From assembly GCA_019455045.1 (NCBI GenBank), contig JACFND010000010.1:1-59537 (forward strand): a stretch of 59,537 nucleotides of DNA, read 5' to 3'. Within the stretch, counting starts at the first letter, position 1, and the number at the start of each line of letters is the position of its first letter. The stretch comes from Flavobacteriia bacterium. GTDB taxonomy: Bacteria; Bacteroidota; Bacteroidia; Flavobacteriales; Weeksellaceae. The translations under genes were made by a program, and so were the position numbers. This document shows, piece after piece, positions 10,478 to 59,520 of this stretch. A model generated the notes under the pieces. That model saw only the letters and a program-made list of their open reading frames with translations, did no database searches and had not been told where the DNA came from.

Positions 10478-10501
10478 CTGAAATTGAATCAAAACAAAAA
10501 A

Positions 10502-33116: not shown

Positions 33117-35396
33117 ATGAGACTCAAATTTTTACTTATTTCCGTCCTTCAAATCTCAATCATCGGATTTGCACAGGACAAATCATTTGATCTGCTTCAG
33201 AATCAAACAGAAACACAGATACTTTACAATCGGGTGGTACCGATTTCAAAGGCAACCCAGCCAAATACAGAAAATATTTCTGCAATTTATTACAGACAGC
33301 TTTTCAGCGAAATCAGCCGATCTGATTTTCAGCAGAGACTGCCCGATTCAAAATGGCTGAAAGAACAGGGAAATCTGGGTTTCAGTCAAAATCAGGTTTT
33401 GCTTTCACTGCTGGTTGCAGACTTTGAAAACATAGAAAAATCTTCTTTTGAAACCGGAAAAGTCAATCAGAATGCCAACGGAAATTTTGTGCTCAATTCA
33501 AATCCTTCAGAAGTTTTTGAAAAATACGAAGTCAGTCTGATGGGTTCACTGCTGGCAAGAGCCGAAACCGATCATCCTGTTTTTGTTTTGAAAAATGATC
33601 TGATTTTTAATCTTTCAAACCGAAATATTTCAAAAATAGAGGTTTATGATAACCAATGGAAAGTCATTCAGCCGGATGTTCCTTTTCAGATTTATTTTGC
33701 AGAAAACTCAAATCAAAGCATCAAATACAGAATCACATTTGACAACGATGAAGCTGTGATTCAGTCATTTGGAATTGAAATCAGAAATAAAAAACTTGCA
33801 TCAGGCTCAGGTTTGGACACAAATTTTGCACCTGATGAAATCCATACCATCACTTCGACCATCGCTTTTCAGGGATATGACGAAACCGAAGCCTTTCAGG
33901 GAATCGGTGAATACGAAATCTTTTTGGATACGGTTGACGGAATCCTTGACCGGCCGGTGATTCTGATCGACGGTTTTGATCCGGGCGACGGCAGAAATAT
34001 CGACGCAATGTATCATATGCTTGATTTTGGCGGAACAGGCGAAAATCTGGCAGATCTGATTCGTGCAGAAGGTTATGATGTGATTTTGCTCAATTTTCCG
34101 GTTTATACACGTCCGGGAACTTCGACTGTGGTTGACGGCGGCGCAGATTATATCCAGCGAAATGCAATGATACTGGTCGAACTGATCAATCAGATCAATG
34201 CACAAAAAGAAGGCAACAGACAAAATGTGATCATCGGACCGAGCATGGGCGGACTGATTTCAAGATATGCACTCAAATACATGGAAATGAACGGAATGGA
34301 TCACGATGCAAGACTTTATCTGTCGTTTGATTCACCGCATCTGGGCGCAAATGTTCCGATCGGAATGCAGCATTTGTTCAATTATATGGCATACGGACCG
34401 GTTGGCGACGAATCGGTTCAGGGAATTGTGGACGGCATGCTGAGAAGTCCTGCAGCGCGTGAAATGCTGATCGATCATTTTGAAAGTCATCTGCTGGCAG
34501 GCAGCGAATTTGAATTTGACGGCAGCAAACTGCTTCCGGACGGAAGTCCGGGATTCAGAGATGATTTTCAAAATGAACTCGATGCAATGGGCTTTCCCGA
34601 AAATACAAGAAATGTGGCGATCATCAACGGTGCAGGCGACGGAACTTCGAACGGTACGCCCGGAATGACCGTGATCGATCATACTTTTGATCTCACTTCG
34701 ACCCAAAGAGCAATTATTGAGCTTCACTTTACACCCAATGCCGGACAAACCCTTGAGGTCAGCAATTTCAAAGGGCAGTTGTGGGTTTTTATATGGATTA
34801 CCCTTTATGAATCGATGGCAAATGCTCAGTCTCCGTCCTATACGGCAGGTTTGGATGCATCACCGGGCGGAAGATTCGATATGACTTCAATTGCTGAAAA
34901 CGCACCCGAGAATGATATGATTCAGGAATTTTTGGACAATCTTCAGATCGAATACTTTTCATTTATTCCGGCGGTCAGCTCAATGGCGATCACAAGTACA
35001 CAGAATCTGTACGATCCGGTTGAATCGGGGCTCAACACACCGTTTGTCAATTATTACATACCTGATGAAAATCAGCCGCATATCTTTTTGGACGAAGGAA
35101 ATGTACTATTCGCGCTGACCGAAATTCTGATTCCGGAAATGGGCACATCAGATGTTGAAATTTCGGGCATCAAAATCGAAAATCCGGTTAGAGATGTGCT
35201 TAGAATTTGGACTGACAAAGAAATTAAAAACGGCAGCATTCAAATTACCGACCTGTCAGGCAGAACCGTTTTTGGCAAATCAAATGTCAATCTGAACGGA
35301 CAAACCCAAATTCCGGTGAAACTGTCAAAAGGAACTTATATCGTTCAAATCAGCAGCGAAAAACAAAATCTGACCAAAAAAATCATCAAACTGTAA
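33117..35396 (+). CDS. Secreted alpha/beta hydrolase with type A T9SS sorting domain
   Basis: A 759-residue secreted protein. It has a signal peptide (MRLKFLLISVLQISIIGFAQ) and a region of beta character up to about residue 270. An alpha/beta-hydrolase domain starts with DRPVILIDGFDPGDGRN. The nucleophile elbow GPSMGGLISRYALKYMEMN (Ser at about 375) and YLSFDSPHLGANVPIGMQ resemble triacylglycerol lipases and PGAP1-like esterases. The C-terminus (IKIENPVRDVLRIWTDKEIK, then GTYIVQISSEKQNLTKKIIKL) is a type A sorting domain. It is probably a cell-surface lipase or esterase. It has its own terminator. Confidence 0.85.
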   Translation: MRLKFLLISVLQISIIGFAQDKSFDLLQNQTETQILYNRVVPISKATQPNTENISAIYYRQLFSEISRSDFQQRLPDSKWLKEQGNLGFSQNQVLLSLLVADFENIEKSSFETGKVNQNANGNFVLNSNPSEVFEKYEVSLMGSLLARAETDHPVFVLKNDLIFNLSNRNISKIEVYDNQWKVIQPDVPFQIYFAENSNQSIKYRITFDNDEAVIQSFGIEIRNKKLASGSGLDTNFAPDEIHTITSTIAFQGYDETEAFQGIGEYEIFLDTVDGILDRPVILIDGFDPGDGRNIDAMYHMLDFGGTGENLADLIRAEGYDVILLNFPVYTRPGTSTVVDGGADYIQRNAMILVELINQINAQKEGNRQNVIIGPSMGGLISRYALKYMEMNGMDHDARLYLSFDSPHLGANVPIGMQHLFNYMAYGPVGDESVQGIVDGMLRSPAAREMLIDHFESHLLAGSEFEFDGSKLLPDGSPGFRDDFQNELDAMGFPENTRNVAIINGAGDGTSNGTPGMTVIDHTFDLTSTQRAIIELHFTPNAGQTLEVSNFKGQLWVFIWITLYESMANAQSPSYTAGLDASPGGRFDMTSIAENAPENDMIQEFLDNLQIEYFSFIPAVSSMAITSTQNLYDPVESGLNTPFVNYYIPDENQPHIFLDEGNVLFALTEILIPEMGTSDVEISGIKIENPVRDVLRIWTDKEIKNGSIQITDLSGRTVFGKSNVNLNGQTQIPVKLSKGTYIVQISSEKQNLTKKIIKL

Positions 35397-43834: not shown

Positions 43835-45340
43835 ATGAAGATTGAAGTAAGAAAATTAAGGGCTGATGATTATGAACAGCTGATTGATTCAATGATTGAG
43901 GCTTATGGCAATTATGAAGATTATTGGAAAAAATCAACACTTGAAAAACTGATTCGGCTGTTTCCGGACGGTCAGTTTTGTGTGGAAGTCAACGGGAAAG
44001 TGGCGGCGGCTGCACTATCGATCATCGTGCTTTATGAATTGTATGGTGATGAACACAATTACAGGGAAATTACAGGAAATTTCAGTTTTGACACACATAC
44101 GGAAGACGGCGATGTGCTGTACGGAATCGATGTTTTTGTACATCCTGAATTTCGCGGAATGCGTTTGGGCAGAAGACTTTATCAGGCAAGAAAAGAATTG
44201 TGTGAAAAGTTAAATCTAAAAGGAATTGTAATCGGCGGAAGACTTCCGAATTATCACAATTACAGCGAAGAAATGTCGCCCAGAGAATACATTTCAAAGG
44301 TCCGGTCAAAGGAAATCCACGATCCGGTATTGAATTTTCAGCTGGCAAATAATTTTCATGTCATCAAAGTTTTGAAAAATTATCTGGAAGGCGATCAGGA
44401 ATCTGAGGAATATGCAGCGCTTCTTCAGTGGAACAATATTTATTATTCAAAAAAGAGAAATGCGATGACCGACAGCATCATCCGGCTTGGTCTGGTGCAA
44501 TGGCAGATGAGGCATTTCAAAGATTTGGATTCATTTTATGAACAGGTTGAATTTTTTATTGATGCACTTGCTGATTACAAATCAGATTTTGTAGTATTTC
44601 CCGAATTTTTCAATACACCGCTGCTTGCGCCTTACAACGATCTGCCGGAACACGAAGCGATGCGAAAACTCGCCGAGCTGACAGAACCGATCAAAAAGAA
44701 ATTATCAGAATATGCAATTTCGTACAATGTGAACATCATCGCGGGAAGCATGCCAACGGTTGAGGACGGTCAGATTTTCAATACCTCCTATCTGCTGCAC
44801 AGAAACGGAAAAACGGATTCCTATCAGAAAATCCATATTACGCCCAACGAACAGAAATATTACGGTTTTACAGGCGGTGAAAAAATCAAGGTTTTTGATA
44901 CCGACTGCGGAAAAATCGGTCTGCTGATCTGTTATGATGTTGAATTTCCGGAATTGCCGAGACTGCTTGCAGATCAGGGAATGAAGATCCTGTTTGTCCC
45001 CTATCTCACGGATACTCAAAACGCATACAACCGTGTCAGAGCATGTGCTCAGGCAAGGGCGATCGAGAACGAATGTTATGTGGCGATCACCGGCTGTGTG
45101 GGCAATCTGCCGGGTGTCAGCAATATGGATATACAGTTTGGTCAGGCTGCAGTTTTTACGCCTTCCGATTTTTCGTTTCCGGAAAATGCAATCAAAGCAG
45201 AAGCAACTCCAAATACAGAAATGACCATCATAGCCGACGTTGATCTAATGCTGCTCAAGGATCTGCATTACAACGGATCTGTCAGAACATTGGGTGACAG
45301 AAGAAAAGATCTGTATGAAGTCAAATTGAAAAAGAATTAA
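43835..45340 (+). CDS. GNAT acetyltransferase fused to a carbon-nitrogen hydrolase
   Basis: A 501-residue fusion. Residues 1 to about 205 are a GNAT domain with the acetyl-CoA motif VHPEFRGMRLGRRLYQARKE. Residues about 212-501 are a nitrilase-superfamily amidase with the catalytic triad Glu in VVFPEFFNTPL (about 256), Lys in YQKIHITPNE and Cys in GLLICYDVEFPEL. This fusion recurs widely in bacteria, but its physiological substrate is not settled. The next gene begins 2 bases after its stop, so it is co-transcribed with the deaminase. Confidence 0.92.
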   Translation: MKIEVRKLRADDYEQLIDSMIEAYGNYEDYWKKSTLEKLIRLFPDGQFCVEVNGKVAAAALSIIVLYELYGDEHNYREITGNFSFDTHTEDGDVLYGIDVFVHPEFRGMRLGRRLYQARKELCEKLNLKGIVIGGRLPNYHNYSEEMSPREYISKVRSKEIHDPVLNFQLANNFHVIKVLKNYLEGDQESEEYAALLQWNNIYYSKKRNAMTDSIIRLGLVQWQMRHFKDLDSFYEQVEFFIDALADYKSDFVVFPEFFNTPLLAPYNDLPEHEAMRKLAELTEPIKKKLSEYAISYNVNIIAGSMPTVEDGQIFNTSYLLHRNGKTDSYQKIHITPNEQKYYGFTGGEKIKVFDTDCGKIGLLICYDVEFPELPRLLADQGMKILFVPYLTDTQNAYNRVRACAQARAIENECYVAITGCVGNLPGVSNMDIQFGQAAVFTPSDFSFPENAIKAEATPNTEMTIIADVDLMLLKDLHYNGSVRTLGDRRKDLYEVKLKKN

Positions 45341-45342: not shown

Positions 45343-45786
45343 ATGGAATTCTCAGATATTACGGATGAATCCTTTATGAACCGCTGCATAGCGCTTGCAA
45401 AAATCTCAAAACAAAGAGGCGAAAGTCCGGTCGGGTCGGTCATTGTAAAAGACGGACAAATTATCGGTGAAGGAATTGAATCGGTAAAAGCGAGAAACGA
45501 TATCAGCTTTCATTCAGAAGTTGAAGCGATCCGTGATGCCTGTCAGCGGCTCGGTCACAGAGACCTGTCCGGCTGTGTGCTTTATACGACGCACGAGCCC
45601 TGTATCATGTGCAGTTACATCATCCGTCAGACAAAGATTTCAAAAGTTGTCTTTGGGATTTCGACCGGCGAAATCGGCGGTTACAGTTCAAAACTTCCTG
45701 TACTAACCGATCAGACGGTTGAAAGGTGGAATCAGCCGCCTGAGATCATTGCCGGATTTATGGAAAATGAATGCCGTATGATTTGA
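45343..45786 (+). CDS. Nucleoside/nucleobase deaminase (CDA superfamily)
   Basis: A 147-residue zinc deaminase. Zinc and catalytic residues are H57 and E59 in SFHSEVEAI, C87 and C90 in HEPCIMC. The family usually has HAE; here it is HSE. Its length fits guanine- or tRNA-adenosine-deaminase-like members, but the typical tRNA deaminase has further conserved residues I cannot confirm, so the substrate is left open. It is coupled to the GNAT-nitrilase gene. Confidence 0.87.
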   Translation: MEFSDITDESFMNRCIALAKISKQRGESPVGSVIVKDGQIIGEGIESVKARNDISFHSEVEAIRDACQRLGHRDLSGCVLYTTHEPCIMCSYIIRQTKISKVVFGISTGEIGGYSSKLPVLTDQTVERWNQPPEIIAGFMENECRMI

Positions 45787-45964
45787 TTCAAAAAATTTGA
45801 TTTTTTGATTTTCAATCTTTGAAATCCGTTTCGAATCGAAATTCAGCCCAAATGAAATCAACCGATATTTTGGTTTTTTAAATTAATTTGGTCAAATTTA
45901 CAATCGATTTTTTCAGAATTAATCCGATTGAATCATCTCTGCCAGACAGTCAATCCATAAAACT

Positions 45965-48175
45965 ATGACCAAGAAACAACTGATCCTTCTGCTCTTTCTT
46001 TTTCTGAAACCTTTGTTTATTGCGGCACAGGGTCCGATCTACATCACGCTCGATGTTTCGCCCAGCATGACCGGTACCCGTTACAATCTTGCGAATTACA
46101 GCGCCCAAACACTGGCTGTGCTCAATCAGAACAGAAATATCGTTTTTGTGGTCAATTCTGAAACTTATGAGATCAACAACGATTACAAACAGATCCAAAA
46201 ACGGATGAATGAATTTGGCGGTTTCAAATATTCCGAGATTTGGGACATCGACAAACTCAACGCAATTGTCAAACCCAAAACACTGAATCAGGATGCGTTC
46301 ATCATCGGTGACGGATATTGGGCTGAGGACAAACTTACCTATGATAATTTCACAAAAATCGTCGATTCTGGAAATGTCAAAGCAGTGTTTTTGGAAACGA
46401 TTTCAAGTAAATCAGAGATTTCATCTTTTGAAAATTATTTTCACGGTTCAGATATCGGAAAAATCTATAAGGTAACTTCTACCGAGGAAATCATCAATGC
46501 AATCAACCAGATTACAGAAGAGATCACCGGCGTGAGTGCAATTCCGACCAACCGGCTGCTGGCGGTTGATGACTGCGTGTCTTTCACCACCGAAATGACA
46601 GTGAACAATATGAAACTGATGGTACAGGCTTCATCCAAACTTTCGGATCTTCCAAAAATCGTATCGATCAGCGTCAACGGAAAAATGCTGAATTTCAACG
46701 AACTCGGCAGTCCGACCAATGAAGGTTTTGCACACAGAATGATGGGACTGATGAGCTCCGGAATTTATGAAGTGACCAGTAAAATTCCGTCAGGATCAAA
46801 AATCGAAATTTGTTTTGACAAAGCAATCGATCCGAATCTGCTGAAAATCTATCCGATCGTTGAAGCCGAAATCGGAAATTTCAATCTTGCCATCCAAAAC
46901 GGGCAGATCACCCAAATTGACGACAACACTTACGGAATCTGCAAAGAAAACAATACGACCGAAATCTTTTTTGAAATCAATCAAAAGGAAAATCAGATTC
47001 CGGAAGAACTGCTGAAAAAGACAGATGTCAAAGTGATTTCAGATCACAAAACTTATCATGCGGTATATTCGGGCGGCGTTTTCAGCGTCAGTATTCCGAC
47101 TGTGAAAAATACGACAACTTATACGATCGAAAGCGAGCTCAAAGGCTATTTCAGAAAGGTTTCGGGTCAGAAAAAGATTGTAAAAACAGACAACTGCAAA
47201 CCGCCGCCACCGCCCAGACTGGAACCGCTGCCTATGCAGTATCTTCATTTTGGCGAAATCTCACTTGACAATCTGCTTCGCGAAGGCAGAATTTCGAGCC
47301 GGATCGTTGACGAACAGACCGGTGAACCGATCAGTCCCGAATATTTTGACATCAAACTGAGCAACAATTACAAAGCGATTTTCAAAAACATCCGGATGGA
47401 GTTCAGAGAAGACAATTGGATCGATCTGATCATTGAACCGAGAGGCCAATGGTGCGACTGTTTTATTCCCGATCAGTTAAAAATCGATTTTTATGCAGAT
47501 CCGAAAGAAGGAATGACCATCGACGGAAAATATTACCGGCCGATACAGGCAATACTGACCGTTGACATCATCAAAGAAAAATCATGGATGGAAAGATGCG
47601 CCTGGCTGCTGTTTTCTATGATCGGAAGTCTGCTGCTGAGCTGGTATCTGATCCTGATCAGCCGAAAGAAAAGATTCAGAAACGGTTCGAGAATCGTATT
47701 CAAATATCCGAACATCAGTTCCAGAAAAACATTGAATCCGACCTATATCACTTCTGATTTCAATTTGAGAAAATCAGGCTTTATGGCCTGGCTGAACAGA
47801 TGGTTCAATCCGTTTGTCACCGAAAAAAATACGATCGGTTTTCACAACATCGATCTGACGCTTCAGTTCATTGCAGCCAAGTCGATGCACTATGTTTATT
47901 TCCCGAAAGCAAGTTTCAACGAAAGCACGATGGAAAGCGTGAATTATGATCCGGACAGCAAAGACAGACACATTCAGCTCGATGAAAACAACGAACTGAA
48001 AGTCACCCATCAGCGGCTGGCGGTCGGAAAAACAACAAATTTCCTGTCTTATGCATTCCCAAGAAAAGCGGGCAACGATATTTCCGCATTCAGATTTGTA
48101 TTGGGAATTTTTATCTTACTTTTATTGGCTTATTTCTTTATTGCATTAATTTTAATCATTAAATCCTTATTCTAA
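45965..48175 (+). CDS. Membrane-anchored vWA-domain protein of the tubulin-like operon
   Basis: A 736-residue protein, first in a five-gene operon. After a signal peptide (LLLFLFLKPLFIAAQ) comes a von Willebrand A-like domain (about 24-190) with the metal-site motif DVSPS (D30-x-S32-x-S34) and FIIGDGYWAED. An extracytoplasmic beta-rich region follows, with a proline stretch PPPPPR near 416. Helix WLLFSMIGSLLLSWYLILIS lies at about 546-565, then a domain of about 140 residues, then a last helix FVLGIFILLLLAYFFIALILII. The middle domain (566-707) would face the cytoplasm and could contact the GTPase. It starts 179 bases after the deaminase; no clear promoter was found. Confidence 0.83.
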   Translation: MTKKQLILLLFLFLKPLFIAAQGPIYITLDVSPSMTGTRYNLANYSAQTLAVLNQNRNIVFVVNSETYEINNDYKQIQKRMNEFGGFKYSEIWDIDKLNAIVKPKTLNQDAFIIGDGYWAEDKLTYDNFTKIVDSGNVKAVFLETISSKSEISSFENYFHGSDIGKIYKVTSTEEIINAINQITEEITGVSAIPTNRLLAVDDCVSFTTEMTVNNMKLMVQASSKLSDLPKIVSISVNGKMLNFNELGSPTNEGFAHRMMGLMSSGIYEVTSKIPSGSKIEICFDKAIDPNLLKIYPIVEAEIGNFNLAIQNGQITQIDDNTYGICKENNTTEIFFEINQKENQIPEELLKKTDVKVISDHKTYHAVYSGGVFSVSIPTVKNTTTYTIESELKGYFRKVSGQKKIVKTDNCKPPPPPRLEPLPMQYLHFGEISLDNLLREGRISSRIVDEQTGEPISPEYFDIKLSNNYKAIFKNIRMEFREDNWIDLIIEPRGQWCDCFIPDQLKIDFYADPKEGMTIDGKYYRPIQAILTVDIIKEKSWMERCAWLLFSMIGSLLLSWYLILISRKKRFRNGSRIVFKYPNISSRKTLNPTYITSDFNLRKSGFMAWLNRWFNPFVTEKNTIGFHNIDLTLQFIAAKSMHYVYFPKASFNESTMESVNYDPDSKDRHIQLDENNELKVTHQRLAVGKTTNFLSYAFPRKAGNDISAFRFVLGIFILLLLAYFFIALILIIKSLF

Positions 48176-48185
48176 ATACGATACT

Positions 48186-51100
48186 ATGGCAACATTTCCA
48201 AAAACACTGATCATCGGTTTGGGCGGTCTCGGCTCTGACATCGTGGTGGATGTATTCAAACGGTTCAGAAACCATTCTCAGCATGAAGACGATTTGAACA
48301 AGGTTCGTTTTCTTGCGCTGGACACAGATTCGGGCGAAGTCAGCGAACGAAGGGAAATCATGAAACCCGAAGATGTGATTCAGACCAGTGCCACAACCAA
48401 TATAACCGTCGGCCATTTTATTGATGAAATCAAAGGCAGCAGCACGGTGGAACAATGGTTTCCGACCGATTCGCCCGAGCTGACCCAAATGTCGATCAAC
48501 GACGGCGCCGGACAGATTCGTGTGGTGTCAAGACTTGCATTTTCACATGCGGTACAAAACAAAAAGCTCGATCGGCTCGAAAAAGCAATCAGCGAACTGC
48601 TTTCATTGAGCGCCGGCGAAGGAAATATCATAGAAGTCCATATCGTGACCAGTACCGCGGGCGGAACAGGCGCCGGATCATTTCTTCAGACCGCTTGTCT
48701 GGTCAGAGAAATTTTGATGCGAAACAATATCACAAATCCAAAAGTCTGGGGTTATTTTCTGCTCGGCGATGTATTTTTGAGAGATCCTTCGATCAATCTT
48801 GCCGATCCGACCAAAATGACCAATGTGCTGGCAAATACTTATGCCTGCATCAAGGAACTGAACGGGATTTTTGAAATCAAACCGGGTGATGAAATCGAAT
48901 TTGAATTCGGCAGATTTTCAACTGTCCCAACCGTTATTTCAAAAGACAATTCAATTCCGTTCAATCAGGTTTTTCTGTATGATTTTGAAAACAACGACGG
49001 AAACAATCTGAAGTTTATCAGAAATTACAGCAGACAAATATCCGAATTTCTATATCTGAACGCATTCAGTCCGGCAGGTTCGGAAACAAGATCAAGAGCA
49101 ATCAACGAGATTTTCAGACAGATCGAACAGGGCTCGGCTTCGAGATACGGGTCCACAGGAATTTCAAAAATCGTCTATCCGATCGAAAATCTGCTTCAGT
49201 ATTTTTCGGTCAGACGACTTGCAGACAATCTTCAGTCCACCTGGCAAAAGATCGATCTTGATTTTGAAAAACTGCACAATGAATGGCGGATCGATACCAA
49301 CAAAGGAATTTTCAAAAAAGAACCCATACTTGGCGAATTCTTTATCAGCAATGTGGATTCGCTTGCACAAAACGGAATGGGAACCGAACAGGTGATTTTT
49401 AAAAGCGTCTGGTCAAGCACCAAGGTCAAAGATCCCGAAACCCTGGACATCATCGGCAGCAAATCGGATTATCTGTTGCACGAAATCGTTGAATATCTGA
49501 GAGGATTGAGAGATTCAAATGCGGACATCAGCGCTCTGGCAAGGATTCATCACAACGAATCATTTACCGGAAAAGTAAATGACGAAGCAAATGACAGAAC
49601 CAATATCAAACAGGTGGAAGACCAGCTGGAAGCGCTTCAGAGAGAAGTTTTCAATTTTGTGGACGAAAACAAAAGTCTTGCGCTGGAAGAAATTTTCACA
49701 AAAGACATCAACAGCCCTGATTATCATTGGGACGAAGCCAGACACAGGATCAACGGTTATCTGCTCGAAAAAGGAAAGGCGATGCATCCGCTGGCTTTGA
49801 GATATTTCTTTTACGAACTGCTTCAAAAACTGGAAGACAATGCCGCAATGCTCAAAGAAAGCAATGACAAAAAGCTGGCAAATATTTCACAGTACAAAGA
49901 TGTTTATGACATCAAAGACGGCAGCGGTCCCGATACACACATAGAAACCGCGATTGAAGCTTATGAGGTTTACAGAAACGGAAGCAAATCTCTGGTGACC
50001 AAATTTGCAAAACTGACAGGAAAATCAACTGAATTGGCTGATTTCAAAGCAGATTATGTCAGAAAATCAAAAAATCAGGCGAGAACGCTTGAAGATTTTG
50101 CATTGGAAAGACTGGAAGAATATGTTTTTGACGGTCTGATCAGTCAGATCAAAAAGATGATCGACAATCTGGAAATGCTGTTCAAGGGAATTCCGAATGT
50201 GATGGTCAGTCTGAAGAATGAACAGAATTCACTGGTCAATATCACAGATGATTCAATGGGCGATCCGTCGGTGATCAACATACTTTCAAAACAGAAACAC
50301 AGAGATTTTATTTATGACGAAGTGATTGCAAAAAAAGACACCATCTTTTTTCCGGAGGACATTTCGAGAAATATTTATGAAGAACTGTACAGCAGAACGG
50401 TTCAGCAGCTGAGCAATCCATTGAGTTATATGTATGACCGTATGGATGAACGGATCGGCAACATCTTCAGCAAACTGGTGGTCAAAAAACAAAAAGAACA
50501 GCTGACTGCAGATTTTAAAAATGATTTTGCAGGATTCAACATCATCGAAGCGATGCGGAAACAGGCAGAACTCGACGGTGTGGAACCGGTTTCGTTTATG
50601 AGTCAGAAATGCAGAGATGCTGAGCGGATGGCAACACCGTTCGGGGCAAGATATGATGCTGCGGCTTCAAAAATCAATTCATGGGCTTTGCATCCTGAAT
50701 GTGTTGAATATCAGAATTTAACACCGAATGATGCAGACCAGTTGTTTAACAATCCGGGAAGCAGACAAAACAATGCAAACCGAATCATTTCCGACTATTT
50801 TGACCGAACCGAAATCATCAGGGAAGATTCGGTAATGGTACTGAGCGTACCTTCGAATTATCCGAAATTCGCGCCTCTGGATATGTCAAAAAGCTATTCA
50901 GCTTCGACAGAAGGAATTTATTACACCTATTACAGAAAAAGAATCAAAGAAATTCAGGAAGATTCAAATCTGCCGACACCTCATCTTGACAAAAGATGGA
51001 ACAATCCAAGATTTTTCAGAGATCTGGGTGTCAATCGGGATGCCTACGAGAAAAACATTCTCAGCGCATTTGTATACGGACTGGCAGCCGGAAATATCGT

Positions 51101-51644
51101 ACTGATCGATCATCAGGGCACGCCGACCTGGGGATACAATACCGACAGAGGAATTGCATTTATGCTGGATGACAACGGAAAGCCCATCAAATCAAGTGTC
51201 AAAAAACTGCTGATCGAATCGCTTTGGAACAATGAACAATTGATTGAAAGTCTGAATTCAAAATTCAGATCAGAAATTGAAAAATCAAGAAACATTTGGG
51301 AACAGATCCGTATGGAAGGCAAAAGCATGCTGAGCATACCGCTGATCAAGGACATCAGAAGATTTACATTCACTGCCGAAGGTCCGCACAAAAACGAAAA
51401 CCTCATTTCGGTTTTCAGCGGTTATCTGACCAATGCGCAGGACGACAGCAAATTCATCAGTCTGGTGCTTGAAATCATCATTGAAACCATTGCTTCGGTT
51501 GCAGGCGACAGAGGTGCAAACACTAAGGATCAGTGTGTTTCAATCGTCAGCAAACTTTTGGAAGGAATCAAGGACAGCGGAGTTCCGCTGACCAGACAGA
51601 CGGTCAGCAAACTGTTTGAAAACAAACTGGAAGATTTCTTTTAA
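48186..51644 (+). CDS. Large tubulin/FtsZ-like GTPase (Tubulin_2 type)
   Basis: A 1152-residue protein with a tubulin-superfamily GTPase at its N-terminus. Nucleotide motif 1 is IIGLGGLGSDIV (9-20, matching the GxGGxG loop of FtsZ), then FLALDTDSGEV (the NTD loop region), and the tubulin signature GGTGAGS at 159-165 (GGGTGTG in FtsZ). The segment ANTYACIKELNGIFEI matches the helix after the GTPase loops. FtsZ and tubulin are 350-450 residues; this one adds about 700 mainly helical residues with no known domain. Such FtsZ-like proteins have been proposed to act in membrane remodelling. It begins 10 bases after the vWA gene. Confidence 0.85.
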   Translation: MATFPKTLIIGLGGLGSDIVVDVFKRFRNHSQHEDDLNKVRFLALDTDSGEVSERREIMKPEDVIQTSATTNITVGHFIDEIKGSSTVEQWFPTDSPELTQMSINDGAGQIRVVSRLAFSHAVQNKKLDRLEKAISELLSLSAGEGNIIEVHIVTSTAGGTGAGSFLQTACLVREILMRNNITNPKVWGYFLLGDVFLRDPSINLADPTKMTNVLANTYACIKELNGIFEIKPGDEIEFEFGRFSTVPTVISKDNSIPFNQVFLYDFENNDGNNLKFIRNYSRQISEFLYLNAFSPAGSETRSRAINEIFRQIEQGSASRYGSTGISKIVYPIENLLQYFSVRRLADNLQSTWQKIDLDFEKLHNEWRIDTNKGIFKKEPILGEFFISNVDSLAQNGMGTEQVIFKSVWSSTKVKDPETLDIIGSKSDYLLHEIVEYLRGLRDSNADISALARIHHNESFTGKVNDEANDRTNIKQVEDQLEALQREVFNFVDENKSLALEEIFTKDINSPDYHWDEARHRINGYLLEKGKAMHPLALRYFFYELLQKLEDNAAMLKESNDKKLANISQYKDVYDIKDGSGPDTHIETAIEAYEVYRNGSKSLVTKFAKLTGKSTELADFKADYVRKSKNQARTLEDFALERLEEYVFDGLISQIKKMIDNLEMLFKGIPNVMVSLKNEQNSLVNITDDSMGDPSVINILSKQKHRDFIYDEVIAKKDTIFFPEDISRNIYEELYSRTVQQLSNPLSYMYDRMDERIGNIFSKLVVKKQKEQLTADFKNDFAGFNIIEAMRKQAELDGVEPVSFMSQKCRDAERMATPFGARYDAAASKINSWALHPECVEYQNLTPNDADQLFNNPGSRQNNANRIISDYFDRTEIIREDSVMVLSVPSNYPKFAPLDMSKSYSASTEGIYYTYYRKRIKEIQEDSNLPTPHLDKRWNNPRFFRDLGVNRDAYEKNILSAFVYGLAAGNIVLIDHQGTPTWGYNTDRGIAFMLDDNGKPIKSSVKKLLIESLWNNEQLIESLNSKFRSEIEKSRNIWEQIRMEGKSMLSIPLIKDIRRFTFTAEGPHKNENLISVFSGYLTNAQDDSKFISLVLEIIIETIASVAGDRGANTKDQCVSIVSKLLEGIKDSGVPLTRQTVSKLFENKLEDFF

Positions 51645-51647
51645 AAA

Positions 51648-53780
51648 ATGAAGAATTTAGGTTACATACTTAATTTCTCAACCAATTATAATGCAAACAA
51701 CTATTTGTATTATTTCCTGCCTGCGATCAGTTCGGGCAGGATACTGCTGTTCAATCAGCTGACCCGAAAACAGCTGCCTGTTGGTCCCAGACACAAAGAG
51801 GCGGTGCTGAAAGAAAAAATCATCAGTCTCAAAAACCATTGGGATCTGTATCGGCTCGATCCGAAAAACAAATACGAAAAACTCAGAATCAATATCGTTT
51901 TTGATTATGAACCTTGGGAATTTACCGGTTTTGGAAAATATTCGTCTTTTACATTTTCTAAAATTTATTATCTCAGAAAAGAATTTGAAAAACACTTCAG
52001 CGAATATGATCTGTCCAAAATCGTATTTCAGTATTTCGCGATCAAAAACAAGGCGGTCGGACTTGAAGAACTGATTCAGTTTTTGGATGAAAAAGGCGGA
52101 ATCAGCGATTCGTCGGGTCAGATCGAATATGGAGAAGTCAACCGTGATCTGATCGAATGGCCGGAATGGAAAGGAATTGAAGAATGCATCAGCGAGAAAT
52201 TTGATCTCAAAAACAAACAGTCAGATCAGCCGGTGACCGAAACCGAAAAAAAACTGGTCGAAAATATGATGCTCAAAATTGAAGACCGGATACTGAACGG
52301 TTTTCATTCGGACGAAAATTCAGTTTTTCCGGGATTTCTGAAAGAATGTATAGCCGAATTCAGAAAAGAGCTGATTTCGAGGATGCTCAAAATCGGCGAT
52401 TTGAACAATTTCAGCCAGAGAAAAGAACAGCTGCTCAGACTGTTTGAAAGATTTTCTTCGGGTTTTTATCTGAGAAAACAGGATATGCTTTTCAGATTTA
52501 CAATCGATTCACAGACCAATCATTCAAAGATTAACGGATATGAATCGCTGACAGCTTTTCTGACCGAATCTGTTGATTTTTTCGGTCAGGACAATCCGGT
52601 CGGATTTATCACCAACGGAAACAACAAACGGACGATCAGCATTGAAGAAATTGAATTTGACGAAGAAAAGACAGCGCTCCTTTTTGGCAGATACCAAAGT
52701 TTTTATCTGCAGGTAAAAAATCTGGCGGAACAGACCAATGAAAACAAAAAAAGACTCAAACAGTTCAAATTCAATTCTGAAATCGATCCCGACCGTTTTT
52801 TTAAAATTGATGAAAGAAAACAGGCCGACTTTCTGACTGTCAACGGAATGAGGAACAGATATCTTCATCTTTTCAGCCGAAAAAACTCTTATCAGATCAA
52901 AAAAGAACTCAATGAGAACAGCATACAGCCGCTTGAGGATTACATCCGCACACAAAGTCATCTGATCAGCAAATCATACAGTCTGGAAGGAAATTACGGT
53001 TTGTCCGAAACCTGGGATGAATTGAATTCAAGAGAGATAGCCGTGGCAATCGATAACATGAACCGTCAGGAAGAAGAATTCAGACTGAGTTCGTCGGGCA
53101 GATCAAAAAAATATGAATCGGCGGTGAGAAAATACAGACAGATGATCGGCGGTCTGAACAATGATTTTATGAATACGATGAAAATACTGCCTGCGCCCAA
53201 AGATATGCATGTATTTTTTCCGCTCGTATTGCTGCTGGTTTTGCTGATGGGCATGCCGTTGTACAAATTCACAGATTGGTTTGAAGCCATCATTTTCGGT
53301 CTGATTTTTATTTTCGGATTGTCGCTGATCGCACTGATCATCTGGTTTTTGGACAAATCTGAAGTCAATTCGAAATTTGAAAATATCTATCTTGAAAATG
53401 TTGAACTCTTCAGCCGTTTTCAGGATCATGTCACCGAATTGTCAAATATGTCGGTGAATATCAGAAAAAGCACGCTCAGACGAAAAAACATCAAAGAACT
53501 CAAAGATGCAAACCGTTCTCTGGAAGAGGAACAGCGAAAATACAGTCTGTATTCGAGATTTTATCAGGAAATCACAGATCAGATTCGTCTGAACGGACAC
53601 CAGTTCGCTGAGACGGCGGTCAATCTGCCTGCAGATATGGATTTACCGCCGATTGAAGATGTCAGAAACAGAATTTCTGATCGTGAGAGCCGTGTGGTGA
53701 TAAAATCGGGTGCGACCGTAAAAAATCATGAAAGCATGGAGAGTCAGTTGGGAATTATCAAATCGATAAAATCAAAATAG
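51648..53780 (+). CDS. Two-helix membrane protein of the tubulin-like operon
   Basis: A 710-residue protein that begins 3 bases after the tubulin-like gene. Residues 1-520 are soluble and charged, partly helical (SRKEQLLRLFERFS-like and NENKKRLKQFKF stretches). Two adjacent helices span about 521-540 and 546-568 (VFFPLVLLLVLLMGMPLY and AIIFGLIFIFGLSLIALIIW), followed by an about 140-residue helical tail (KELKDANRSLEEEQRKYSLY). No signal peptide is present, so both ends are expected in the cytoplasm, the position needed for an adaptor between a filament and the membrane. I recognise no family. Confidence 0.8.
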   Translation: MKNLGYILNFSTNYNANNYLYYFLPAISSGRILLFNQLTRKQLPVGPRHKEAVLKEKIISLKNHWDLYRLDPKNKYEKLRINIVFDYEPWEFTGFGKYSSFTFSKIYYLRKEFEKHFSEYDLSKIVFQYFAIKNKAVGLEELIQFLDEKGGISDSSGQIEYGEVNRDLIEWPEWKGIEECISEKFDLKNKQSDQPVTETEKKLVENMMLKIEDRILNGFHSDENSVFPGFLKECIAEFRKELISRMLKIGDLNNFSQRKEQLLRLFERFSSGFYLRKQDMLFRFTIDSQTNHSKINGYESLTAFLTESVDFFGQDNPVGFITNGNNKRTISIEEIEFDEEKTALLFGRYQSFYLQVKNLAEQTNENKKRLKQFKFNSEIDPDRFFKIDERKQADFLTVNGMRNRYLHLFSRKNSYQIKKELNENSIQPLEDYIRTQSHLISKSYSLEGNYGLSETWDELNSREIAVAIDNMNRQEEEFRLSSSGRSKKYESAVRKYRQMIGGLNNDFMNTMKILPAPKDMHVFFPLVLLLVLLMGMPLYKFTDWFEAIIFGLIFIFGLSLIALIIWFLDKSEVNSKFENIYLENVELFSRFQDHVTELSNMSVNIRKSTLRRKNIKELKDANRSLEEEQRKYSLYSRFYQEITDQIRLNGHQFAETAVNLPADMDLPPIEDVRNRISDRESRVVIKSGATVKNHESMESQLGIIKSIKSK

Positions 53781-53781
53781 G

Positions 53782-56700
53782 ATGAATACGATTTGGGAGA
53801 TATTTTTTACGATTTTGGCGTTCAACTATGTTTCGTTCAACGGAAAGAAAGATGTTCGCTATACCGGCTGGTATCGTCCCTGGCTGCTGGTTATCCTGAT
53901 TTTGGTCTGTCTCGGATTTTACAACAAACTGACTTCGGATCTGCCGAGTGTAGCGCTTTATCAGCATTACAGAATCGAGCTTGCCTTTTGCATGATCGTA
54001 ATCGTTTTCTGGATCGGACTCAAAATGTTGCTGGCTATCATCGGAGCCAACAAAAGACTGTTTCCGCTGCTTCAGAAATTCAACAAAGACAAGGTGCTCG
54101 AACGAAAAAAAGGATATGCAAACTATCTGCTCTGGCCTTATGTGATCGACGATTTCAAGATCAGATTCAGAAACGGTCACAAATTCTTTAAAAAACTGTT
54201 TTGGGTCGCCGTCATACTGCTGCTGATTTCAAATATATGGTCGTCCTATTATTATGACCGTTATTTACTTGTTCTGCCCAATCTGCTCAGTCTGCTTGCA
54301 GTTCCGGTATTGCTCGAATGGATCGTTTATTTCAACTGGAAAACGGCCAAAGATCAGAATCTGACCGATCAGTCCGAAAATCAGCAGACCGGTTCAAATT
54401 TTTATCAGCTGTTTGCGCGTTATCTCGACAAAGACCACGGTTTTTTTGACAGCTGGATTTCGGGTTATCTCAGTTCAAAAGAAGAAACCGCAAATGTAAA
54501 TCAAAGAAACAACGAAGCTTATCTGACCGAATACATCGACAAAATCAACAATGAAGATATTGATCTGATCATCGGTTCGGACAATTTCACGGATCTGGTT
54601 CCCGATGTGGCGGCTTTGCTTCTGAACACAATTGAAAAAGGTGGCAACATACTGATGATTGCAGATCTGGCGGATCACAGCACTTACAATCCATCGAGTG
54701 TGGGCATCAAAACCGAAAGCGACAATGCGCATTCTGTGGTGAAACTCTTTTCGGTTTTTCTGAACCAAATCCTGACCGATCGTATGCCATCGGCCGAAAA
54801 TCTGATCGATATCGGTTATTATTCAAAAAAGGATACTTCGGGGCTTTCAAAAAGAATACTGATCTGCAGTGCTGAAGATGCATTGTCAAAAGAGCTGATT
54901 CATTCGGAATGGATGAAGGAAATGGATCTGCTGATGGTTTTTCAGTTCAATGATTCGCTTGCCAACAATCTGGGTATCAAAAGACAGCTGAGCCTTTGGC
55001 TGAAACAGCAGAACAAAAGTTTTAAATCATTGTTTTTCAAGAACTACAGTGCGGGCGGTGACGAAGCCACTTCGGTGACCTGGATCAGTTCAAGAGACGT
55101 GCCCGAAGTCAATCTGCAGAACATTCAGACTTCAAAAACCAATTATTTCATCAATTTCGCTTATGAATACAGTGTCAGCAATCTGAACCAAATCCTGGTT
55201 GGCAATACCAACGAATTTGATCTGGCGCCGGGGATTGAGCTCGCTGTTTTTCCGATCATGGAAAACATCGATCACATCCATTATTTTGAAGGATTTGGTC
55301 TGGATTATATTCAGAGCAAAAACAAACTGGAAAATCTTCAGAAATCATTTAAAAGCGGTGACGGAAGTGCAAATGATCTTTTCAATTATTATGAAAATGC
55401 GGATCAGTCAAAACTGTTCAAAAGCATACTGATCAACAATCTGCCGTTTATCGTTCATCATCCGGGCAATCCCGAATGCAATGACAGACATGTTTCGGTA
55501 ATTTTTGACAGCATTAGCAATTCGCCAAAACTTTATCAGAAATATATGCATCTCGGCAAAACCGAATCTTTTGTCTGCATCGTTTCCAGACCTCATCTGA
55601 TGCGAGAATATTTTGCCGAAAACATCAATTTCTTTGTCGCTTCGACCATAGAACCGCTTGAACTTCAGTTGTCAAAATCAAAGATCAATCTCTGTCTGGA
55701 GCTGCTCAAACTGCTGATCAATGAGCAGATCGATATTGAATTTATCAAAAGTCTGATCAATTCGCATTCGATTGATCCGGGCGGCGGAAGCGTGATTGAA
55801 TTTATCAAAAAACTGTTCAGCCAGTATCTGTTTTTGGATGTGAGCAAAAATGCAATTCTGAAATCAGAGAGCAGATATGTGTTCAAAGACGGCGATTATT
55901 ACCATCTGCATGCGCTGAGCATGGACCGGCACAAACTGGAAATCAATGAGATTTTTGAATACCTGAAAAAGGTGAATGTGAAAGACAGCAGCGGAAATCT
56001 GATACTTGAGATACCGAAATATCTGCTGTTTCAAAATTTCCTTCCGCTTCAAAACATCATCATCGACGGAATCAGTTATGAATATGTGCAGTACAGCGAA
56101 ATCAACAAAGAACTGGTGCTCAAAACCCGTCCGACCGATATATTTTCGTTCAACAAACCGGCTGCAGTCATCGGTGTTTCAAATCATTCAAAGGCTGAAA
56201 TTATTGAAAGTACAGACAATCTCGGCATTTTTATAGACGGAAGGCTTCATCGTTTTTCATCAGAAATTACAGAAAACGAAATTGAAATTTATTATCAAAA
56301 TTATTATCAGTTCCACAGATTTTACAACAGTCCGCTTTCAAAACAGCAGACACCGAAACTGATCAATTTGGGCGAATTTGACAGTCTTATCGAAGATTCA
56401 AAAAGAAAATACAACACCCGTTATCTGCATTTTCAGTGGGAAGTTCCAAAAAAATATACTGACCGTCTGGCCGAACTGACCACAAGGATTCATCATCTGA
56501 TTTATGAATTTCTGCCGATACTTTTCCCGCAGAGAAGCCAGTACATACTGATTGCGTCTGACAATAATCTTGACGAACGGCACAGAAATGCGGTTCCCTG
56601 GATATTTCCCGAAAATAATTTTGAATACAATGCCGAAAACTGTATTGAGTTTTATGTAATTGAAGATTCGTTTGCTGATTTGGGAATTCTGAAACCGATA

Positions 56701-57609
56701 CAGAATTTCTTTTCAAAAAAGATACTGACCGATCTTTATTTTTATCTGAAATGGATCAGCGATCCCAATCCGGCTGTGCTCCCGCCCTATTTTCAGAATT
56801 TTAAAAACAATTTCTTTTATAAGGACAAACTTTCGTTTCTGAAATACGGTCTGACCGGAAATCAGATCAGCTGGGACATTGAATTTCTGATTGAGTTTCT
56901 GGAAGATTCAAAATTATTTGATAAAACAGCCATCGGTCAGGGATACAGCACCGGAAGACCTGCAGCTTCGGCAGTCAAAAGTTCAAATGTTGAATGTGAT
57001 TATTGCGGAAATAAATTCAAACTCGATCAGGTTCAGCTGATGGAGGACGGTCTTCATCGCTGTAAGGACTGTGCGGTAAATGCGGTCGAAAATGAAGCAA
57101 CTGCAAAAGATTTGGCGGTTCAGGCTGTCAAACTGTTCAATACCGTTTGCGGTGTTGATCTGAATGTTGCTTATGATCTGAAACTTGTCAGCGCGACCGA
57201 ACTGAATCATGCATTGGGCATCCCTTTCAGGGTGAGTGATAAATTTGACAAAAGAAAAAATTCTGGTGCTGTGATGAATACGATTTATCTTGAAAAAGGA
57301 GTGAGCAAAAACATCAGTTTGGGTTGTCTGATCAGGGAACTGACAGCATTGTATGAGATTCAGAAACTGAATTTTATGACCATGAAATATGCTGATCCGA
57401 AACTGACCGAAGGTTTGCCGATTTATGCAGAATACATACTGATGAAAAACAGCGGTAATGTGGATTTCATGAATTATGCAGACAGACTGAAACAGGTATA
57501 TGACAAAGGAAATGCAGCAGAATCTGAAATTTTCAAATATATGAATCAGAAATTCAAAGGACCTGAATTCTTAAAGACGATCGGCAGGATTTATTCCAAA
57601 AAGGCGTGA
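53782..57609 (+). CDS. Large membrane protein with C-terminal zinc finger and degenerate peptidase-like domain
   Basis: A 1275-residue protein beginning 1 base after the previous stop. Five or six helices occupy about residues 4-185. A long soluble region of alternating strands and helices (for example DLIIGSDNFTDLVPDVAALLL and NILMIADLADH) follows, unassigned. At about 1069-1099 four cysteines in CDYC and CKDC form a zinc finger of the treble-clef or LIM-like kind. After it, IYLEKGVSKNISLGCLIRELTALYE and LTEGLPIYAEYILM resemble the HExxH...E core of DA1-like gluzincin peptidases, but the HExxH is RELTA here. A bound metal for catalysis is therefore unlikely. Function unknown. Confidence 0.78.
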   Translation: MNTIWEIFFTILAFNYVSFNGKKDVRYTGWYRPWLLVILILVCLGFYNKLTSDLPSVALYQHYRIELAFCMIVIVFWIGLKMLLAIIGANKRLFPLLQKFNKDKVLERKKGYANYLLWPYVIDDFKIRFRNGHKFFKKLFWVAVILLLISNIWSSYYYDRYLLVLPNLLSLLAVPVLLEWIVYFNWKTAKDQNLTDQSENQQTGSNFYQLFARYLDKDHGFFDSWISGYLSSKEETANVNQRNNEAYLTEYIDKINNEDIDLIIGSDNFTDLVPDVAALLLNTIEKGGNILMIADLADHSTYNPSSVGIKTESDNAHSVVKLFSVFLNQILTDRMPSAENLIDIGYYSKKDTSGLSKRILICSAEDALSKELIHSEWMKEMDLLMVFQFNDSLANNLGIKRQLSLWLKQQNKSFKSLFFKNYSAGGDEATSVTWISSRDVPEVNLQNIQTSKTNYFINFAYEYSVSNLNQILVGNTNEFDLAPGIELAVFPIMENIDHIHYFEGFGLDYIQSKNKLENLQKSFKSGDGSANDLFNYYENADQSKLFKSILINNLPFIVHHPGNPECNDRHVSVIFDSISNSPKLYQKYMHLGKTESFVCIVSRPHLMREYFAENINFFVASTIEPLELQLSKSKINLCLELLKLLINEQIDIEFIKSLINSHSIDPGGGSVIEFIKKLFSQYLFLDVSKNAILKSESRYVFKDGDYYHLHALSMDRHKLEINEIFEYLKKVNVKDSSGNLILEIPKYLLFQNFLPLQNIIIDGISYEYVQYSEINKELVLKTRPTDIFSFNKPAAVIGVSNHSKAEIIESTDNLGIFIDGRLHRFSSEITENEIEIYYQNYYQFHRFYNSPLSKQQTPKLINLGEFDSLIEDSKRKYNTRYLHFQWEVPKKYTDRLAELTTRIHHLIYEFLPILFPQRSQYILIASDNNLDERHRNAVPWIFPENNFEYNAENCIEFYVIEDSFADLGILKPIQNFFSKKILTDLYFYLKWISDPNPAVLPPYFQNFKNNFFYKDKLSFLKYGLTGNQISWDIEFLIEFLEDSKLFDKTAIGQGYSTGRPAASAVKSSNVECDYCGNKFKLDQVQLMEDGLHRCKDCAVNAVENEATAKDLAVQAVKLFNTVCGVDLNVAYDLKLVSATELNHALGIPFRVSDKFDKRKNSGAVMNTIYLEKGVSKNISLGCLIRELTALYEIQKLNFMTMKYADPKLTEGLPIYAEYILMKNSGNVDFMNYADRLKQVYDKGNAAESEIFKYMNQKFKGPEFLKTIGRIYSKKA

Positions 57610-57626
57610 TTTTTGGAAGAATCATC

Positions 57627-59324
57627 ATGTCCGGTCGCACAATAAATCAATTATTCATCGTTTCAAAAAGAGTGAGGTTTAGAATCTTTTTTGGTGTATT
57701 TTTTCTGATTACTGTTGTCAGCGGACAGCAGAAAACCGATTCTTTGCTGAATTTTTTCAATTACAAACCCGAACTCAAAAAATACGAAGCCGATTTTCAG
57801 AAAAAGATTAAAAATGATTCAACTCTTTATTTTGCGCTTGATTCATTGAAAAATATCGGTTATTACACACTTTCGGTTGATTCAATCCGAAACAATGATG
57901 TCTGGCTCAACAAAGGGAAACTCTACAAACAGCTTTGGGTAAAAAATGATACTTTGTTCAATCAAAAAACCGACTGGTTTCCGGTTCGGAATCTGGATTC
58001 GCTGATTCAAAAAGTCAATCAGAAATATGCAGAAAAAGGTTATCCGTTTATCGAACTCAAAATCATTCCGATGGGTTACAAAGACGGTGAAGCCCGGCTC
58101 AGACTGGAACCTCAGCTTTTTGACCGAAGGACGCTGGACGGTGTCAGGGTGTCTGGTTATGAAAAACTTTCAAAAGGATACATCAGACATGCTTTGGGTT
58201 TGAAAACAGGTGTAACTTACAATGAATCCGAACTTTATAAAATCTCTGAAAGAATGAGTTACAGTCCCTTCATTGAAGAGGTCAGACCGGCACAGACGCT
58301 GTTCAATCCGGATTCGACTTATATCTATCTGTATGTCAACAAGGTGAAATCAAATATCTTTGACGGAATCATCGGTTTTGGAAATGACGAAAAAGGAGAT
58401 TTTCAACTGAACGGAAATGTGAAAATCGAACTAAACAACAATTTCAATGCGATGGAACAAATCCGGCTGAACTGGATTGCGACCGCCGACAAAAGCAGTA
58501 CACTTGATCTGAATGTTCGGATTCCTTATCTTTTCAAATCTGCAGTTGGGACACAGACCAGTCTGAATATGTTCAAAAGAGACAGCACTTTTGTGAATAC
58601 AAAACTGGAAGAACGGCTGTTTTATCAAATCACAATGAATTCAAATCTGGGTTTGAATCTGAGTTATGAAAGTTCAAATTTTGTATTGGACGATCATCCC
58701 GAAATGGCGCAGCTGTACGATGATTTCAGCAAAAGCGGTTACGGTTTGAGTTATGAATTTGTTCAGCCGATACAAAACCGGCTTTTTGAAGGAAAATCAA
58801 AAGTATTTCTGATCGGAAAGACGCTGAATCGAAAAATCACGGAATACGATCCCGAAATCAATGAATATCTCGATAACAAAAGCCGTCAGTACGAGATCGG
58901 TCTGGATGCTTTCCGACTTTTCAGACTGCATCCGCATCATTACATCAAAGCCCGGGTTCAGGGTTACGGTCTGTTTGGAAACGATGATTATTATTCGACC
59001 AACGAGCTGTACCGAATCGGCGGATTCAACAGTCTGCGCGGTTTTAACGAAGAAAGCATAACCGCTTCGGCATACGGGATTACAAGTCTGGAATACCGTT
59101 TTCTGCCGAATGACGGTTTTTATATTTCGGTATTTGGAGATTATGGATTTGTCGAAAACAAGGCTTCTGATTTGAGTCAGAATCTGTTTGGAACCGGCGT
59201 AGGATTTTCATTTCTGACCCAATTGGGAATTTTCAATATGAGTTATGCGGTCGGCAAACAGTCGAATACCGGATTTGATTTCAGAAATTCAAAAATTCAT
59301 TTTGGGATACTGACCCGTTTCTGA
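57627..59324 (+). CDS. BamA/TamA-type outer-membrane beta-barrel protein
   Basis: A 565-residue Omp85-type protein with a signal segment (FRIFFGVFFLITVVSGQQ), POTRA-like periplasmic modules at about 80-260 (KLYKQLWVKNDTLFNQ, GYPFIELKIIPMGYK and RIRHALGL-like helix stretches) and a 16-strand-type barrel. The lid loop motif IGGFNSLRGFNEES (about 463-476) holds the conserved VRGF-like RGF of Omp85 proteins, and the last strand ends FGILTRF with a terminal aromatic. The frame also opens at a GTG (57606) overlapping the previous stop; I prefer the ATG at 57627. It closes the tubulin-like operon and might insert or export an outer-membrane partner. Confidence 0.85.
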   Translation: MSGRTINQLFIVSKRVRFRIFFGVFFLITVVSGQQKTDSLLNFFNYKPELKKYEADFQKKIKNDSTLYFALDSLKNIGYYTLSVDSIRNNDVWLNKGKLYKQLWVKNDTLFNQKTDWFPVRNLDSLIQKVNQKYAEKGYPFIELKIIPMGYKDGEARLRLEPQLFDRRTLDGVRVSGYEKLSKGYIRHALGLKTGVTYNESELYKISERMSYSPFIEEVRPAQTLFNPDSTYIYLYVNKVKSNIFDGIIGFGNDEKGDFQLNGNVKIELNNNFNAMEQIRLNWIATADKSSTLDLNVRIPYLFKSAVGTQTSLNMFKRDSTFVNTKLEERLFYQITMNSNLGLNLSYESSNFVLDDHPEMAQLYDDFSKSGYGLSYEFVQPIQNRLFEGKSKVFLIGKTLNRKITEYDPEINEYLDNKSRQYEIGLDAFRLFRLHPHHYIKARVQGYGLFGNDDYYSTNELYRIGGFNSLRGFNEESITASAYGITSLEYRFLPNDGFYISVFGDYGFVENKASDLSQNLFGTGVGFSFLTQLGIFNMSYAVGKQSNTGFDFRNSKIHFGILTRF

Positions 59325-59328: not shown

Positions 59329-59520
59329 TCAGTTCATTCCGGGCTGATTTTTCGCCATCGACTGCATCATCTGTCTTCCGCCCGAAGACTGCATAAACTT
59401 CATCATCTTGCCCATTTCGGAGAATTGTTTCAACAGCTGGTTGACTTCCTGAATCGAAGTTCCCGAACCTTTTGCAATTCTGTTTTTTCCTGACTTCCGC
59501 AAATTAACACCCAAAATCAA
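59329..59520 (-). CDS. ffh: 3' end of ffh, signal recognition particle protein (partial)
   Basis: Minus-strand frame encoding the last 55-60 residues of the Ffh M domain: KNRIAKGSGTSIQEVNQLLK, then FSEMGKMMKFMQSSGGRQMM and the end NQPGMN. The remainder of the 450-residue protein is not in the window. Upstream of about 59,485 the frame no longer reads as Ffh and meets an in-frame stop (59530-59532), so the window end may contain frameshifts or another sequence. Convergent with the Omp85 gene, 4 bases apart. Confidence 0.75.
   Translation of the reverse strand: MILGVNLRKSGKNRIAKGSGTSIQEVNQLLKQFSEMGKMMKFMQSSGGRQMMQSMAKNQPGMN

Follow-up and report, generated by a model that had tools for sequence, protein, structure and literature searches.

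A four-gene module with a tubulin-type GTPase in a Flavobacteriia genome and its recurrence in several bacterial phyla

Operons combining a tubulin-type GTPase of the FtsZ-like 1 family (FtsZl1, Tubulin_2) with a vWA gene were described by Makarova and Koonin in 2010, who proposed a role in membrane remodelling; in that paper's treatment of FtsZl1, the T6-H7 elements were not identified and no similarity was reported for the C-terminal domain (PMC2875224). Tubulin and vWA genes also occur together in systems centred on a GAP1-N2 GTPase, for which a role in biological conflict was predicted (PMC7159879, eLife 2020), and at CRISPR loci (PMC10910872, Science 2023). Here, we report the analysis of a locus carrying both types of gene in a Flavobacteriia bacterium (assembly GCA_019455045.1), located in a 59,537-nucleotide stretch of contig JACFND010000010.1 that was analyzed as a whole and is referred to as the window. 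Five open reading frames (ORFs) on the same strand occupy positions 45965-59324 of the window and encode, in this order, a vWA protein, the tubulin-type GTPase (TUB), two further proteins (O3 and O4), and an Omp85-type protein (Table 1). The first four of these genes form a module that recurs in several phyla, and the Omp85 gene is an ordinary chromosomal neighbor located outside of it.

The locus resembles the FtsZl1 operons, as these appear in the 2010 description, by its GTPase family, its vWA gene, the presence of lineage-specific membrane genes, the occurrence of a separate FtsZ in the genome, and a long helical region following the GTPase core. It differs from that description in that one and the same set of partners (vWA, TUB, third gene, and O4) is encountered in several phyla and in that the TUB model aligns with tubulins up to residue 949, whereas the published text mentions no C-terminal similarity. 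O3 and O4 may already be present, unnamed, among the supplementary gene families of the same paper (PMC2875224). The GAP1-N2 systems share with our module a tubulin, a vWA protein with membrane segments, and members in Bacillota, but their defining components are a TRAFAC GTPase and GAP1, neither of which was detected by Pfam in the four window proteins (TRAFAC at E values up to 1), and the GAP1-N2 section of that paper describes no O4-like protein (PMC7159879). At the CRISPR-associated loci, tubulin and vWA genes likewise accompany genes of CRISPR type (PMC10910872), the corresponding gene in our set being a CARF-HEPN gene found in one clade.

Relatives of TUB were sought by conserved TUB patterns, and at least 61 genome loci were obtained, all locus counts given here being among the matches listed. 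Iterated profile searches were performed on 635 ORFs taken from 61 loci and four further ones; vWA, TUB, and O4 were recognized by profile, and the third gene was counted by its place and size (500 to 950 residues). The four genes were present in the order vWA-TUB-third gene-O4 in 27 of the 39 loci that offered both flanks (2.6 kb or more before TUB and 6.2 kb or more after it), with adjacent vWA, third, and O4 genes in 33, 28, and 28 of these loci, respectively. Considering each flank separately, vWA adjoins TUB in 39 of 47 loci with sufficient upstream sequence, and the third gene and O4 are both present in 34 of 47 loci with sufficient downstream sequence. An earlier note on this DNA had grouped these genes on the basis of the window alone, and the grouping is borne out for the vWA, TUB, third, and O4 genes. 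Full sets were found in Bacteroidota, Bacillota (Bacillaceae and Clostridia), Thermodesulfobacteriota (L031), Pseudomonadota (L038), and Cloacimonadota (L057); a Rhodothermota locus (L017) has TUB together with the third gene and O4, on a contig that does not extend to the vWA side. In several Bacteroidota loci, two or three tandem vWA genes, in varying number, precede TUB (L004 3721-9971, L029 4694-9944, and L025 5289-9956).

The last of the five ORFs matches the POTRA and ShlB models of Pfam, in agreement with the Omp85 assignment of the earlier note. However, its association with the other four genes, also proposed there, did not survive comparison with related genomes. Five congeners lacking TUB, two of which are only 76% and 81% complete, all carry the Omp85 gene, in one copy each (66-76% identical). 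In the nearest of them (G069, 76% complete), a single 6071-base contig displays the end of the FUSC-type gene that also lies upstream in the window, the deaminase gene (73% identical), approximately 70 bases, and then the Omp85 gene (76%). Comparison of the window with G069 by blastn gave matches that end at position 45774 and restart at position 57639, and bases past the Omp85 gene (59335-59489) also match. In the stretches fetched from the other four congeners, the Omp85 gene is not located beside any other queried flank gene. A profile search with the Omp85 query gave no match among the 635 ORFs of the related loci, and tblastn detected the gene in none of the 61 listed loci, the TUB positive control being detected in 58; at least 1 kb past O4 is visible in 31 of the 38 loci containing O4. 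The closest relatives (P0002 and P0003; TUB 82-85%) are known as proteins only and are therefore outside of this count.

The five head-to-tail ORFs and the first three gaps (10, 3, and 1 bases) are as the earlier note had them, but the last gap, given there as about 17 bases or a 4-base overlap, is likely of 62 bases, based on alignment of the 5' ends in six genomes. A GTG codon (57672) is located at the same place in the window and in the five congeners, and in four of the congeners an in-frame TAG precedes it with no other start codon in between, the fifth having a TTG further upstream. The apparent overlap with O4 arises because one extra base in the window opens the upstream frame. Promoter and terminator scans performed no better than shuffled sequences. 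The module likely landed beside a resident Omp85 gene. Since this gene is not part of the module, the depiction of the locus as spanning the whole cell envelope is unsupported; the four genes are also present in Bacillaceae, which have no outer membrane. The window shows a second presence/absence difference from G069, a gene encoding a fusion of GNAT and carbon-nitrogen hydrolase domains (43835-45340) that is missing in G069 between the FUSC-type and deaminase genes and that has homologs (58-72%) in 12 of 39 other sampled genomes.

The distribution of the module is patchy. In genome samples that were drawn evenly, overlap one another, and are not complete, TUB exceeded the Pfam cut-off in 1 of 100 genomes of the family (matches at an E value of 0.001 in 3 of 100), and TUB was found in 1 of 395 genomes of the class and in 1 of 395 genomes of the order, the positive genome being the window's own each time. 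Conservation across the host's order, for which the earlier note had suggested to look, is thus rejected on the basis of this sample. The phylum sample gave TUB profile matches in 5 of 395 genomes, and a family-level sample around Sutcliffiella gave 1 of 18. One genome of the same phylum has a TUB identical to that found on a Rhodothermia contig. A relative of TUB with 82% identity is assigned to a metagenome-assembled genome of Edaphocola (order Chitinophagales). A quick tree, in which several branches are long, served solely to delineate the Bacillaceae clade and to assess the spread across phyla. Scanning genome contigs for TUB alone matched 86 stretches, none of which was a relative, and the plasmid search returned four distant tubulin-like records, none with 80% coverage. 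The ends of the insert share no direct repeat of more than 8 bases. Horizontal transfer of the module into the chromosome is likely because of the patchy distribution and of the empty site in G069, the loss of the module in G069 being a conceivable alternative.

TUB matches the Pfam family Tubulin_2 (PF13809) over residues 8-345, with an E value of 9.4e-53 and a score of 180.1 bits for a cut-off of 27. In its GGTGAGS loop, residues G159, G160, T161, G162, and G164 are invariant among 33 aligned rows, and the loop is in register with that of FtsZ (hhalign E value of 0.0012, probability of 19). The structural model predicts a complete tubulin fold that aligns with tubulins across a large helical insertion. 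Identification of TUB as a tubulin/FtsZ-like GTPase, proposed from the signature in the earlier note, was therefore upheld by both the family match and the predicted fold. Sequence-profile searches of TUB against the PDB gave nothing useful. The host genome also encodes a separate FtsZ; a role in cell division is therefore not required of TUB.

The vWA protein begins with a signal-like segment, carries a DxSxS motif, and contains two more hydrophobic segments, in keeping with membrane anchoring. Residues D30, S32, and S34 are nearly invariant across 30 aligned rows; a hydrophobic segment is present at the matching place in all 30 aligned members and the N-terminal segment is present in 26. No vWA model of Pfam matches the window copy, and VWA_2 and VWA were detected in 6 and 4 of 30 family members, respectively. 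O3 contains two adjacent hydrophobic segments, as expected for the two-helix membrane protein previously proposed, and it has no Pfam match at an E value of 0.01 and no named relative. Exactly two hydrophobic segments, usually located about two-thirds to three-quarters along the sequence, were found in 37 of 41 third-position proteins, which were selected by place and size and include some that are only about 10% identical. Across phyla, these proteins share almost no sequence (about 10% identity). Pfam detected no GAP1 in the 41 proteins, although a divergent GAP1 may escape Pfam. Membrane segments occupy matching places within all three membrane families (vWA, third gene, and O4).

O4 is the most composite of the four proteins. 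Its hydrophobic segments are confined to the first 185 residues and are followed by a region (residues ca. 204 to 1044) predicted by modeling to adopt a helicase-like fold, nearest to the superfamily 2 (SF2) helicases of the MrfA/DUF1998 type (MrfA, PDB 6znp and 6zns), from which O4 differs by the absence of a Walker A motif. This part of the protein took all rows of the fold search, and other folds could lie elsewhere in O4. Sequence-profile searches of O4 against the PDB gave nothing useful. The Walker A pattern [AG]x4GK[ST] occurs in 3 of 59 O4 sequences, two of these occurrences being remote from the expected position. The four cysteines of the zinc finger are conserved in 52 of 57 O4 proteins, including that of the window, and HExxH together with a downstream Glu is found in 43 of the 57, the sets of 57 and 59 sequences counting the O4 of the window itself, some near-duplicates, and a small number of rows with scant coverage of the region. 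Pfam searches on 35 members at E values up to 0.1 gave BSP in 19, DUF6782 in 17, and DA1-like in 1, with no match for the window O4. These motifs and weak matches suggest that the C-terminal end of O4 is metallopeptidase-like. In the window, both HExxH histidines are lost (RELTA), and the idea of a working peptidase in the O4 of this lineage was rejected on this ground. The earlier description of O4 as a polytopic protein with a zinc finger and a peptidase-like end therefore holds for the N-terminal segments, the CxxC...CxxC motif, and the general nature of the end, but not for the catalytic histidines. Separately, the clostridial O4 proteins of L049, L050, L056, and L058 (about 1730 to 1770 residues) retain the zinc finger but no longer have HExxH, a loss that seems independent of the one in the window lineage.

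Genes flanking the module were surveyed in 36 loci, which gave 147 ORFs (130 to 900 residues, up to three per side); 140 were scanned, and seven of the longest were left out. In Evansella, Sutcliffiella, and Alteribacter, a CARF-HEPN gene (Csx1/Csm6 type) is located 50 to 188 bases after O4, and the encoded proteins contain an R-x6-H motif (RNKSRLAH or RNKSRLVH). CARF-HEPN was the only defense-related family with more than one member among the families listed (25 of 155 for Pfam and 25 of 57 for PADLOC). A Csm1 model had no match over the cut-off, and one weak match below it, in two Bacillaceae genomes bearing the CARF-HEPN gene. In a Prevotella locus (L005, 19382-20950), an RmuC-like ORF (PADLOC RTasRmuC) starts at the base right after O4.

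The explanation that we tentatively favor, with somewhat less than even confidence, is that the four genes, which recur in several phyla and have likely been transferred, encode a sensing-and-response device predicted to act at the inner membrane. In this scheme, the vWA domain would detect an event on the outer side of that membrane. On the inner side, TUB would assemble in a GTP-driven manner and bring O3 and O4 together, after which O4 would, in most relatives, cleave a target by means of its zinc peptidase; in the window lineage, it may act as a binding scaffold since the zinc ligands are lost. The most likely setting would be biological conflict, phage attack being one example. Four features tilt the balance toward conflict without proving it, namely how sporadically the module is distributed, the peptidase site of O4, the resemblance of O4 to helicases in shape, and the RNase gene that neighbors some loci. 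The published tubulin/vWA conflict systems (PMC7159879) and the tubulin and vWA genes located at CRISPR loci (PMC10910872) point in the same direction.

Several observations weigh against this explanation. The full set is incomplete in 12 of the 39 loci, including four of the Ectobacillus clade (L030, L034, L035, and L048) that have only vWA and TUB, with no O3 or O4 within 9.6 kb downstream; a two-gene form may thus exist. Profile homology to O3 is limited to nine loci, all in Bacteroidota, and the third genes located elsewhere have no profile match to O3. The host lineage itself has lost the peptidase residues of O4. The helicase-like assignment has structural support only, as hhalign gave no significant match between O4 and six DUF1998 proteins, and one clostridial O4 (L049, 16028-21229) has at residues 358-365 the string ASVMTGKS, the only Walker A-like string at the aligned place of motif I, which may be due to chance or be a relic of an active helicase. 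Scans of the five window proteins revealed no match with PADLOC and nothing useful with NCBIfam. The three CARF-HEPN loci form one clade and therefore probably reflect one evolutionary event, and they make up 3 of the 36 loci surveyed. Other matches to defense models among the 140 neighbors, within the 25 of 57 families listed, were single and mostly involved broad families. Among viral contigs, 19 stretches matched and none was a TUB relative. Finally, the GC content of the insert is not distinct from that of its neighbors.

A role in membrane remodelling or vesicle formation is possible, if rather unlikely. TUB polymers would bend or partition the inner membrane via O3 and O4, with the vWA protein as a cation-regulated partner on the outside. 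The full predicted tubulin fold and the separate FtsZ are in line with this proposal, which was published for FtsZl1 operons on the basis of their vWA and membrane-protein context (PMC2875224). However, remodelling leaves unexplained the O4 zinc finger, the metallopeptidase site that is intact in most O4 proteins, the CARF-HEPN neighbor, and the sporadic distribution within the order, and our literature searches found no experiment on any FtsZl1 member among the papers listed. We regard as unlikely a module devoted to envelope stress or protein quality control with no conflict role, in which the vWA protein would detect damage outside and O4 would degrade or hold a membrane protein. The predicted location of the vWA domain outside and of the peptidase-like end inside would fit such a function, as would the frequency of HExxH, but the module is carried by single members of the sampled families and orders, unlike housekeeping quality control.

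A bolder version of the conflict explanation, which we consider improbable, is a tubulin-powered alarm for phage entry. The vWA protein would feel injection at the inner membrane, TUB filaments would grow, and O4, as a membrane-anchored dead helicase, would grip the incoming nucleic acid and fire a linked effector, which would be its own peptidase in most lineages and the CARF-HEPN RNase in some. Such an alarm would resemble Zorya, a membrane-anchored system, with a tubulin cytoskeleton as its moving part. Literature searches combining tubulin/vWA with defense or anti-phage terms found no paper. At the far end, a five-gene, two-membrane machine including the Omp85 barrel, suggested by the position of its gene on the same strand shortly past O4 in the window genome, is very improbable in view of the TUB-less congeners, the empty site, the listed loci, and the Bacillaceae, and the barrel is ruled out as a fifth component.

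Table 1. Features of the module, its flanks, and the CARF-HEPN genes of related loci (window coordinates unless a locus is given)
Feature	Coordinates	Strand	Properties or basis
vWA protein, 736 residues	45965..48175	+	Signal-like N-terminal segment; vWA domain predicted extracytoplasmic; hydrophobic segments near 548 and 714
vWA metal-site motif DVSPS (DxSxS), residues 30-34	46052..46066	+	Sequence; near-invariant in family alignment
TUB, Tubulin_2 (FtsZl1) GTPase, 1152 residues	48186..51644	+	Predicted complete tubulin fold with large helical insertion
TUB signature loop GGTGAGS (tubulin/FtsZ), residues 159-165	48660..48680	+	Alignment, FtsZ register
O3, two-helix membrane protein, 710 residues, no known family	51648..53780	+	Hydrophobic segments
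O4, 1275 residues: membrane segments at the N terminus; region predicted to be helicase-like (about 204-1044), with no Walker A; zinc finger; metallopeptidase-like end, inactive	53782..57609	+	
O4 zinc finger CxxC...CxxC, residues 1072-1097	56995..57072	+	Cysteine count in O4 proteins
O4 residues 1185-1189, RELTA, at the HExxH place of most relatives	57334..57348	+	
Region that has no counterpart in congener G069 (limits approximate)	45787..57638	+	blastn
Left flank, outside the module: cytidine/deoxycytidylate-type deaminase gene	45343..45786	+	Pfam
Right flank, outside the module: Omp85-type gene (POTRA and ShlB-type match)	57672..59324	+	Likely start GTG 57672
CARF-HEPN RNase gene directly after O4, three Bacillaceae genera	L020 12121-13599; L024 19515-20972; L028 19344-20840		

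Elsewhere in the window, a tandem array (9751-10478) consists of 2.4 copies of a 300-base unit with 96% matches, and type IX secretion sorting domains (CHU_C or Por_Secre_tail) are present in three proteins (12505-15747, 22670-24442, and 33117-35396).

The description of FtsZ-like 1 proteins dates from 2010, and our searches for FtsZl1, Tubulin_2, and DUF1998/vWA/tubulin returned no functional study among the matches listed. New here are the limitation of the module to four genes, the empty site of G069, the prediction of a complete tubulin fold for TUB, and the makeup of O4. The models suggest that the family possesses the entire tubulin fold, with a large insertion in it, which argues against the principal doubt raised in the literature over filament formation by these proteins, and the shape of O4, a predicted helicase-like scaffold with a zinc finger and a peptidase-like end, points to signaling or conflict beyond membrane bending only. 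The four-gene set, which is found across bacteria with one and two membranes, provides a testable unit for tubulin function that leaves out the outer membrane.

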